The notes beneath the pieces were generated by a model. It was not told where the DNA came from, ran no database searches, and saw only the letters and a program-made list of their open reading frames with translations. The translations under genes and the position numbers were made by a program. 64,000 bases of DNA from Prochlorococcus sp. AG-442-M23 (GTDB lineage: Bacteria; Cyanobacteriota; Cyanobacteriia; PCC-6307; Cyanobiaceae). Within the stretch, counting starts at the first letter, position 1; each line of letters opens with the position of its first letter. Shown here piece by piece: positions 5,723-8,043 of the stretch. The stretch spans positions 155,904 to 219,903 of the forward strand of contig QCPW01000002.1 in NCBI GenBank assembly GCA_003209655.1, in the 5' to 3' direction.

Positions 5723-5872
5723 CTAAGTGTTATGAAGATTGTAAGAAGTTAAATAAAGGTTAGATTTTTTATCATTATCATTTGCTTTATTAAAAATAAG
5801 AATTGTTGAAATTACAATAATTAAAATAATTAATAAATCCCCAACGGTTACTCCTCTTTCTTTTAAATTCAT
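5723..5872 (-). CDS. Small single-TM hypothetical protein (49 aa)
   Basis: MNLKERGVTVGDLLIILIIVISTILIFNKANDNDKKSNLYLTSYNLHNT; hydrophobic segment after a conserved-looking N-terminus. Confidence 0.5.
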   Translation of the reverse strand: MNLKERGVTVGDLLIILIIVISTILIFNKANDNDKKSNLYLTSYNLHNT

Positions 5873-5908: not shown

Positions 5909-6061
5909 TTAAAAACTACTTTTTAGAATATCTTGAAGCCTAGTTCTTTTTACAATATTTTCTTCTTCCCATATACAAGTAGCTTCATCATTATTTATTG
6001 GCTTTGCTTCATAAGCTAAATACCATAGAAGCAATCCAACTGGAATTATTAAAATTTGCAT
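5909..6061 (-). CDS. Small single-TM hypothetical protein (50 aa), divergent from 6130..6492
   Basis: MQILIIPVGLLLWYLAYEAKPINNDEATCIWEEENIVKRTRLQDILKSSF. Confidence 0.5.
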   Translation of the reverse strand: MQILIIPVGLLLWYLAYEAKPINNDEATCIWEEENIVKRTRLQDILKSSF

Positions 6062-6089
6062 TAAATTTATGTTGACTTAAATTTAATAT

Positions 6090-6124
6090 AGTGCAACACT
6101 AAAAATACGCAAGTGTCACAATAA
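6090..6124. promoter_or_regulatory. Candidate operator sites upstream of 6130 ORF
   Basis: AGTGCAACACT (6090-6100, AGTG-N3-CACT palindrome) and AAGTGTCACAAT (from 6111); similar sites flank the paralogue at 7128. Confidence 0.4.
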
Positions 6125-6129
6125 TTTTT

Positions 6130-6492
6130 ATGCCCTCTAAAAGAAAAAGAATTGGTTTTCTACCACGTGCAGAGATTCAGAACATAATAGATCAAATTTG
6201 CGAACAAAATAAATTAAGTCAATCAAAAGTTACTGGTATTTTGGTTGAAGAAGGACTTTCTTCTAAGGGATTTTTAAATAATTCTATAAATAATAAATCA
6301 TATCAACTATCGAGTAATAATAAAGATTTATCATTAATTAGCGATGATAGTATCAATAATCAAAAGCGTAATGAAATTGATAAATTAACTTTAGATGAAA
6401 TTAATATAAAAGATGAGGTACAAATGATCAACGACTACATTGAGTTTAAATTTTTCAAAAATATAATGAAACAAAATAAAAAATTTGGCTGA
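6130..6492 (+). CDS. Ribbon-helix-helix-like putative regulator, paralogue 1
   Basis: MPSKRKRIGFLPRAEIQNIIDQICEQNKLSQSKVTGILVEEGLSSKG: beta strand, helix, LSQSKV turn, helix; 29 of first 47 residues identical to 7128..7508. Confidence 0.65.
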   Translation: MPSKRKRIGFLPRAEIQNIIDQICEQNKLSQSKVTGILVEEGLSSKGFLNNSINNKSYQLSSNNKDLSLISDDSINNQKRNEIDKLTLDEINIKDEVQMINDYIEFKFFKNIMKQNKKFG

Positions 6493-6728
6493 ATAATGTC
6501 ACACTAAATTATCTTTATAACTATAAAAGTTGAACACTCTACATAAAAAATCTATTATGGATACTTTTTCCCTAAATCAGTTAATATTTAGCTTGAGGGG
6601 TAGATTGAAAAACATCAATAGAATTATTAATTAATTTCATTCAAATTGTTGCTATATCTAAAATTTTTCTTTGAACTTCTTTTAAGTAAATCTTCTTATT
6701 TAAGTCAAAATAAAATACTTTGAAATAG

Positions 6729-6914
6729 CTACTTAATAAGTCTTTGCTTTTTTATATATTTTAAATATGGGGTTGCCCATTTGCCTAATGTAATTGTAAC
6801 TTTCCAATTATAAGGTTTTAGCTTTATCGAATTAGCTAATGGTTTTTTGTGAGGTAGATATGTCTGTATTAAATAAAGAGTTATATCTAATAGAGAGTTC
6901 TGATTATCTTTCAT
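6729..6914 (-). CDS. Small hypothetical protein (61 aa)
   Basis: MKDNQNSLLDITLYLIQTYLPHKKPLANSIKLKPYNWKVTITLGKWATPYLKYIKKQRLIK; start overlaps stop of the upstream small ORF (TAATG). Confidence 0.45.
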   Translation of the reverse strand: MKDNQNSLLDITLYLIQTYLPHKKPLANSIKLKPYNWKVTITLGKWATPYLKYIKKQRLIK

Positions 6915-7051
6915 TAGATAAATAAATCCTCAATACCTGAGTAATCTTCTCTTTCACTTGGTGCTTTATCGTTCATTTCATAGATGTCATCTTTTGATTT
7001 ATAACATAGATAGCCAAGTCCAATAAATAGAAAAGTAAATGAAATGATCAT
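6914..7051 (-). CDS. Small single-TM hypothetical protein (45 aa), divergent from 7128..7508
   Basis: MIISFTFLFIGLGYLCYKSKDDIYEMNDKAPSEREDYSGIEDLFI; shares a GL..YL.Y..K pattern with 5909..6061. Confidence 0.5.
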   Translation of the reverse strand: MIISFTFLFIGLGYLCYKSKDDIYEMNDKAPSEREDYSGIEDLFI

Positions 7052-7099
7052 GATGTTTGGTTGACGGAAACTAAATATAATGCAAAAATATTTGTAGTC

Positions 7100-7113
7100 A
7101 AGTGCAACACATT
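7100..7113. promoter_or_regulatory. Candidate operator site upstream of 7128 ORF
   Basis: AAGTGCAACACATT, matching the upstream site of the paralogue. Confidence 0.4.
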
Positions 7114-7127
7114 GTTCACCTATTTAT

Positions 7128-7508
7128 ATGCCTACAAGTAGAAAAAGGATTGGCTTTTTACCCAGACCAGAGGTTCAAACAATACTTGATGACTTAAGTA
7201 TTGAAGAGAACCTAAGTCAGTCAAAGGTTGTTGGAATATTAGTAGAAGAAGCACTTAACTATCGTGGACTATTTGATAAAAAGAATGGAAAGCGTTTTCT
7301 TGGTAATCCTCATGATCACAATTTATCACAGAGTTTAATGAAAGGTGTTAGTACTGAAAATTTAGAGCTGATTGATGAATTAAGAAAAGATAATCCTAGC
7401 GCTAGGATTGAGCTCGTACCACGCAAGAAAAGATCCGATAATAGGGATGAAATGCTAGAAAAATTTGCCCAATTTTTAAAATTTCAGGAAATTATGGAAA
7501 ATTATTAA
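7128..7508 (+). CDS. Ribbon-helix-helix-like putative regulator, paralogue 2
   Basis: MPTSRKRIGFLPRPEVQTILDDLSIEENLSQSKVVGILVEEALNYRG; RHH-like pattern, homologous to 6130..6492. Confidence 0.68.
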   Translation: MPTSRKRIGFLPRPEVQTILDDLSIEENLSQSKVVGILVEEALNYRGLFDKKNGKRFLGNPHDHNLSQSLMKGVSTENLELIDELRKDNPSARIELVPRKKRSDNRDEMLEKFAQFLKFQEIMENY

Positions 7509-7969
7509 ATATACTCAGTATGTACTTAAGTGTTACATTATTTTACGCTTTTTTGTCGGTCATAAATTTAAAGGATAAGTTTTAAAGACGTATACTGAGA
7601 TTCAGTAGCCATGATGTTTTAGATGAAAAAGTCAATAATTCTATACAATACTTCCAAAGCCATTATGGTAAAGAATAAACTTCTATGGTTTTTTTCACCT
7701 TAATAACCAACTTTTTAAGATTTATTTGATAACTAATGCAGATTATAAGAAAAGTTGTAATTTAACATATTTTTTATAGTTTAAAATATTAGAAGATTTG
7801 TAATATTTCAAGGTTGATTGTTAATAAGAAATAGACATATGAAAATTATTTATATAGTTATCTTTTATTTATATTTAAATGAGAAAAACAGAATTTAAAA
7901 AATTTAAAACGTTAAATTATAAACAAAAAATGACTTCAAAGAAGCTAATTTATTAAATGGACTTGGGAA

Positions 7970-8043
7970 TGTCTCGAGCGTGACTTGAACACGCGACCTG
8001 TGGGCTATGAATCCACCGCTCTAACCAGCTGAGCTACCGAGAC
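7970..8043 (-). tRNA. tRNA with CAT anticodon (likely elongator tRNA-Met)
   Basis: Reverse strand GTCTCGGTAGCTCAGCTGGTTAGAGCGGTGGATTCATAGCCCACAGGTCGCGTGTTCAAGTCACGCTCGAGACA folds as a cloverleaf with CAT anticodon; Met vs lysidine-Ile not resolved. Confidence 0.9.

Follow-up and report, generated by a model that had tools for sequence, protein, structure and literature searches.

Two divergently oriented gene pairs lie close together in the window (the whole 64,000-nucleotide stretch of DNA that was analysed), each consisting of a single-pass membrane micropeptide and, on the opposite strand, a protein of the ribbon-helix-helix (RHH) type. Each unit fairly likely forms an autoregulated divergent module complete in itself, in which an RHH repressor would act on its own gene and on that of the micropeptide; the RHH protein probably represses both genes. 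This reading builds on what can be seen in the sequences, namely the open reading frames (ORFs), their conservation and purifying selection, the geometry of the operator-like sites and the decay of promoter boxes after loss of the peptide. An activator, or a regulator with both roles, would be expected to leave nearly the same traces in the sequence as a repressor.

The locus and its features

The host genome (G000:C2) comprises 1.63 Mb in 27 contigs. All four ORFs were found where a first-pass annotation of this DNA had placed them (Table 1). That annotation had called P0001 and P0002 paralogues, and 29 of 47 N-terminal residues are indeed identical; it had also given each micropeptide one N-terminal membrane segment, in agreement with the single hydrophobic stretch found in each (best 15-residue mean hydropathy 2.2 and 2.1). 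The intergenic regions, likewise thought to be homologous, share TTGAC...AATATA.TGCAA at 6072-6096 and 7061-7085, and 34 of 51 bases are identical between 6072-6122 and 7061-7111. Since orthologues or relatives of each unit occur across the genus, the similarity of the units is not due to chance. An Rfam scan of the window returned two tRNAs only, with no known ncRNA in the intergenic region, and the literature searched contained no study of these genes.

Table 1. Genes and putative regulatory elements of the two units (window coordinates)
Feature	Position	Strand	Remarks
Module B micropeptide P0003	5909..6061	-	50 aa; single TM helix at the N-terminus, second helix predicted at 25-49
Inferred RHH-B -35 TTGACT	6072..6077	+	17 bp before AACACT 6095-6100
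Inferred peptide-B -10 TATATT (AATATA on +)	6085..6090	-	
Operator-like palindrome 1 AGTGCAACACT	6090..6100	.	in 38/38 class B modules; one of the two perfect intergenic sites next to RHH genes in the host genome
Inferred peptide-B -35 TTGCGT	6107..6112	-	16 bp from -10; class B has TTGCxx-type box there
Operator-like palindrome 2 AGTGTCACAAT	6112..6122	.	exactly 22 bp from site 1
Module B RHH-type protein P0001	6130..6492	+	120 aa, family alignment
Operator-like palindrome 3 AATGTCACACT	6495..6505	.	just 3' of RHH-B stop
A-like micropeptide P0004	6914..7051	-	45 aa, one TM, C-terminal DLFI
Inferred P0002 -35 TTGACG	7061..7066	+	17 bp before AAAAAT 7084-7089; position homologous to conserved TTGACT
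Inferred P0004-side promoter TTGACT-16-TATATT	7074..7101	-	10/12 matches; conserved in class A
Degenerate operator-like site 1 of second unit, AATGCAAAAAT	7079..7089	.	
Operator-like site 2 of second unit, AGTGCAACACA	7101..7111	.	22 bp from site 1
Second RHH-type protein P0002	7128..7508	+	126 aa, AlphaFold + Foldseek
Operator-like site 3 of second unit, AGTGTTACATT	7529..7539	.	3' of P0002 stop

Module classes and their history

Judged by sequence comparison, modules A and B are two ancient paralogues. The unit at 5909-6492 is module B, and its neighbours, a peroxiredoxin on one side and trmL/cobU on the other, are those seen in MED4 (we take genome G015 to be MED4 and G022 to be MIT 9515). 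The unit at 6914-7508 is an extra A-like module, assigned by its peptide and unique to the host among 267 genus genomes. The suggestion that a whole divergent unit had been duplicated stands in part: the membrane peptide, shared promoter and RHH protein are paralogous as a unit, but a local duplication of B is not supported. Specifically, tandem copying of unit B was rejected because A and B are far apart throughout the genus (usually 45-115 kb in other genomes, 14 kb in G146) and P0002 has no close orthologue among the 267 genomes.

The host genome contains four RHH paralogues rather than two (P0001, P0002, L002 at C2:118456 and L004 at C2:47117). L002 is the ancestral A locus, where the RHH gene is intact and the peptide is present only as a remnant, KEEDNLYKDLDDLF. 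In one simple scenario, the new A-like unit would have replaced this decayed ancestral unit. A mobile, phage or plasmid origin was rejected, as searches of phages, plasmids and IMG/VR found no relatives. The stretch from RHH-B to the tRNA gene at 7970-8043 (7509-8043) accommodates the extra A-like unit here and a cluster of small ORFs in MED4 (L240 10448-13633), and a tRNA-like sequence directly follows RHH-B in related strains (L065-L077); the interval looks like an insertion hotspot. Module A of MED4 lies ~3.6 kb upstream of a cluster of hli (high-light-inducible) genes (L239 11027-15837), and a link to light stress is possible.

The divergent peptide/RHH pair is intact in 114 of the 118 class A modules read and in all 38 of class B (two peptides with GTG starts were scored as intact by inspection), counts that include many close relatives and, because the loci were fetched by similarity, are biased towards recognisable modules. 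The proposed conservation of the divergent pair is thereby upheld for classes A and B, where a peptide sits beside nearly every RHH gene, but it does not extend to class C or to the usual sister-genus RHH copy, neither of which has a divergent membrane peptide. As these RHH relatives lack the peptide, the pairing arose as an innovation within this genus.

The micropeptides

In each module the peptide and RHH genes are divergent and about 50-77 bp apart. Median pairwise dN/dS is 0.23 for the A peptide and 0.20 for the B peptide, which makes it most likely that these frames are translated and under selection, and these substitution patterns indicate that both micropeptides are real genes under purifying selection; with dN/dS at ~0.2 in both classes, the concern that the frames might not be conserved is answered. 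Profile searches found the B peptide in 24/24 and the A peptide in 23/24 near-complete genus genomes (part of a 300-genome family sample); a search of 151 genus genomes gave B peptide matches in 120, with incomplete genomes and some weak matches counted. Outside the genus, the same profiles gave few matches in the family sample, all of them weak (E above 0.004) and unconvincing. The A peptide of MIT 9515 is interrupted by a stop codon.

Class A peptides follow the pattern MILPTTLLLGALGYLFY.SKKE...DDLYKDLEDLFI and class B peptides MHILLFPVGFILWYLAYEAKP..NDE.T..WEE.N..KR.KLLNII.ESF; P0004 is 39-55% identical to class A peptides. AlphaFold predicts helices 2-18 and 25-49 in P0003. A further conserved single-TM micropeptide follows the B peptide downstream in the same orientation (5723-5872, minus strand, MNLKERGVTVGDLLIILIIVIST...), with orthologues near module B in MED4 (L240 9086-9244), G108 and G022. 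A 61 aa ORF at 6729-6914 (minus strand) has a one-base overlap with the stop of P0004 and may be an operon partner, or a chance frame.

The RHH proteins

The first-pass assignment of both proteins to the RHH type is supported by structure prediction. The AlphaFold model (49 relatives) has helices at residues 14-27 and 31-45 with high pLDDT, a disordered linker and a helix at 103-125, and the two ~14-residue helices joined by a short turn reproduce the strand-helix-helix arrangement of RHH (MetJ/Arc/CopG) proteins. The best PDB matches in Foldseek were RHH proteins (3ft7, CopG and Arc), with a probability of at most 0.94 and a target TM-score of at most 0.77; no E-value fell below 0.001, the domain being small, and it is the consistent set of hits that carries support. 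CopG and Arc differ in that they have 45-53 residues, without the long linker and C-terminal helix, and belong to phage or plasmid contexts. In Pfam and NCBIfam the RHH proteins of the window match no model above the cut-off (among relatives the most frequent weak match in Pfam is RHH_5, in 6 of 49, best E 0.033), and a profile search of the PDB recovered no RHH chain. The fold can exist without such a sequence match, and is therefore not excluded by a missing one. From the predicted fold and the layout, P0001 and P0002 are treated here as RHH proteins.

RHH relatives occur in 139/151 genus genomes, and in 51/51 of those that are at least 90% complete. Their layout comprises a conserved stretch of ~50 residues at the N-terminus, then a hypervariable linker, and at the other end a C-terminal helix that is class-specific (FLKFQEMM in A vs EFIEFKYFKKVM in B), the overall patterns being MPTKKKRVGFIPR for class A and MPSPRKRIGFLPS for class B. 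The linker is dispensable, with members L045 and L061 having 90 and 98 aa. The N-domain of P0002 is nearest to an extra RHH copy in AG-402-P18, of the sister genus (38/50 residues identical), and on this ground P0002 was rejected as an A/B chimera; a 50-column tree was unresolved. In AG-402-P18 (L130 1501-2012) this extra copy is preceded by TGTGCGACACT, and the frame after it, which encodes a 57 aa TM protein in the same orientation, overlaps it.

Inferred promoters and operator-like sites in the shared intergenic region

The modules share a near-invariant intergenic core, TTGACTTA..AATATAGTGCAACACT, and two operator-like palindromes of the form AGTGNNNCACT, the second of which is often degenerate in class A. 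In 154/155 modules of classes A and B, sites 1 and 2 are separated by exactly 22 bp, which places both palindromes on the same face of the DNA. In-phase operator spacing is expected for RHH dimers, and the candidate sites have the character of an RHH-type operator, being short palindromes set in phase along one side of the DNA. Site 1 sits between the inferred -35 and -10 boxes of the peptide, in their 16-bp spacer, and on the inferred RHH -10. With the divergent orientation conserved and a candidate operator over both inferred promoters, the locus has the organisation of an autoregulated divergent pair; autoregulation, one of the options in the first-pass annotation, is thus backed by conserved operator-like sites. 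The RHH-side TTGACT is kept in 38/38 B modules, in 111/113 A modules with a peptide and in 4/4 where the peptide was lost.

Of the 12 perfect AGTGNNNCACT sites in the host genome, two lie between genes next to an RHH gene, and nearly all the others fall in coding frames. Across 20 other genomes, the sites that recur are mainly module sites, and other sites are mostly non-recurrent. A wider regulon read from perfect sites was rejected, since the two beside RHH genes alone are clearly promoter-placed; the coding position of nearly all the rest fits autoregulation, with no visible wider regulon. Class C promoters (L004, L141-L143), which have no peptide, carry the related sites AAGTGTTACAAT and TTGACAGAAGTGTTACAAT, a hint at cross-regulation.

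A third operator-like site 3' of the RHH gene

A palindrome with at most 1 mismatch lies within ~35 nt after the RHH stop in 146/157 rows (109/118 A and 37/39 B, one of the 39 B rows being from the sister genus). None of the 157 control stretches 100 nt further on contains it, nor do any of 13 other sister-genus rows. In class B, the flanking sequence shows poor conservation between clades and no gene has its start there, so that looping between the 5' and 3' operators, or a road-block, is a likelier role than that of a promoter; on the same grounds, an antisense or downstream promoter was not favoured.

Modules that have lost the peptide

The peptide is broken in four class A modules (L002 in the host genome, L016, L257 and L258), with lesions that differ among them, and the losses therefore look independent. 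All four retain the RHH ORF, AGTGCAACACT and the RHH-side -35 TTGACT. The peptide -35 (AGTCAA), by contrast, is gone in 4/4 of them vs 2/114 intact modules (Fisher p = 2e-6, phylogeny ignored). ATATAG is kept in 151/151 modules with a peptide and altered in two of the four after its loss, and the peptide -10 is accordingly changed in 2/4 vs 0/151 (p = 5e-4, phylogeny ignored). This decay assigns the boxes to their genes and indicates that the RHH gene on its own keeps the operator in place. The repeated joint loss of the peptide and its promoter is a clean natural dissection of the divergent promoter.

As the RHH gene outlives the peptide, its protein must matter beyond it. The RHH protein might mainly regulate itself and its paralogues, in a small network of classes A, B and C, with the peptide as a separate conserved membrane protein that happens to share the intergenic space. 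The related site AAGTGTTACAAT in class C promoters, the persistence of RHH genes without a peptide and the sister-genus RHH proteins that have none would all suit such a network; yet the peptide and RHH gene are paired genus-wide and were duplicated jointly (A, B), and site 1 falls within the inferred promoter of the peptide. We hold this reading to be very unlikely.

The same losses bear on a toxin-antitoxin (TA) function, which the first-pass annotation had raised and which would make the peptide toxic (e.g. by membrane depolarisation) and the RHH protein its antitoxin and repressor. A small single-TM peptide does adjoin an RHH protein, and in the inspected loci no peptide was seen without RHH, whereas the RHH gene has outlasted the peptide in four cases, an asymmetry compatible with such a unit (in L058, an apparent exception, the locus is cut by the contig end and the RHH start is visible). 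RHH antitoxins of type II systems (ParD, VapB, TacA) also resemble the present proteins in having an extra C-terminal segment, autoregulation and a small partner gene. However, in every module read the genes are divergent rather than operonic, so that the co-directional antitoxin-toxin operon of type II systems is absent, as is a match to a known toxin or antitoxin family; the partner is a TM peptide, conserved strongly along its whole length and not in hydrophobicity alone. Type I TA peptides (of the TisB, Ldr and Hok type) are short single-TM peptides, but no antisense RNA antitoxin was seen here, the regulator is a protein, and the peptide has a long conserved soluble tail. Nearly all genus genomes carry one A and one B copy, vertically inherited as part of the core and with conserved synteny, and no PADLOC match and no relatives in phages, plasmids or viral contigs were found. 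A classical TA locus is disfavoured, and a TA-like unit of any kind appears quite improbable.

A proposed mechanism

In the autoregulated module that we favour, the protein of 120-126 aa would be a repressor with its RHH domain in residues 1-50, followed by a variable linker and a helix at the C-terminus. Dimers of this protein would bind two 11-bp palindromes, AGTGNNNCACT, that lie 22 bp apart between the two genes, in the stretch in which the inferred promoters overlap (TTGACT-17-AACACT for RHH; TTGACT or TTGCxx-16-TATATT, on the opposite strand, for the peptide). Dimer binding would silence both genes, so that repressor and single-pass micropeptide would be held low and inducible, and the third site may strengthen repression via a ~400 bp loop. 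The micropeptide would be the output of the module, a small membrane protein made once repression is lifted. The RHH binding, the repression, the inducing signal and the looping are steps that we infer.

Alternatively, the peptide could be a membrane-tethered anti-repressor, whose cytoplasmic tail would bind the C-terminal helix of its own RHH protein and pull it off the DNA, giving feedback. What makes this attractive is that peptide tails (DDLYKDLEDLFI in A vs KR.KLLNII.ESF in B) and RHH C-terminal helices are both class-specific, with a dispensable linker between the helix and the RHH domain; the charge pattern, too, suggests a cytoplasmic tail. The helix is nevertheless found in sister-genus relatives without an adjacent peptide and is still conserved after peptide loss (L002, L257, L258), and so did not arise for the peptide, which weakens the case for it as a peptide-specific dock. 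An anti-repressor is accordingly unlikely, if deserving of some weight. A combined version, in which the operators bracket the RHH gene (two 5', one 3') and form a ~400-bp repression loop, the peptide tethers the repressor to the membrane, and A and B act as parallel sensors of membrane or light stress in a streamlined phototroph that has very few regulators, would be rather more speculative, and we doubt it.

Comparison with known regulators and significance

MetJ of E. coli (metJ-metBL) is an RHH repressor that acts on the overlapping divergent promoters of itself and its target, the arrangement proposed here; its target is a biosynthetic operon, its corepressor S-adenosylmethionine and its sites are arrays of met boxes, and no sequence relationship to the modules was detected. 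Among cyanobacteria, TrcR of Anabaena PCC 7120 (All0854) is a proven autorepressing RHH protein whose conserved motif (ATACTACACTTGTATTAC) overlaps the -10 box; it has a multi-gene translation regulon and, in the text consulted, no divergent membrane peptide (PMC10272220). Autorepressing RHH proteins thus occur in cyanobacteria, although TrcR itself is missing from Prochlorococcus according to its authors (PMC10272220). Compared by domain type and motif, TrcR and the candidate autorepressors of the modules agree in the former and differ in the latter.

Prochlorococcus ranks with the most abundant of phototrophs and possesses very few transcription factors. The mapped candidate operator would give directly testable predictions of promoters and binding, and two near-universal modules without a matching family model would add a regulatory circuit, together with two conserved families of membrane micropeptides, to the core genome of Prochlorococcus.
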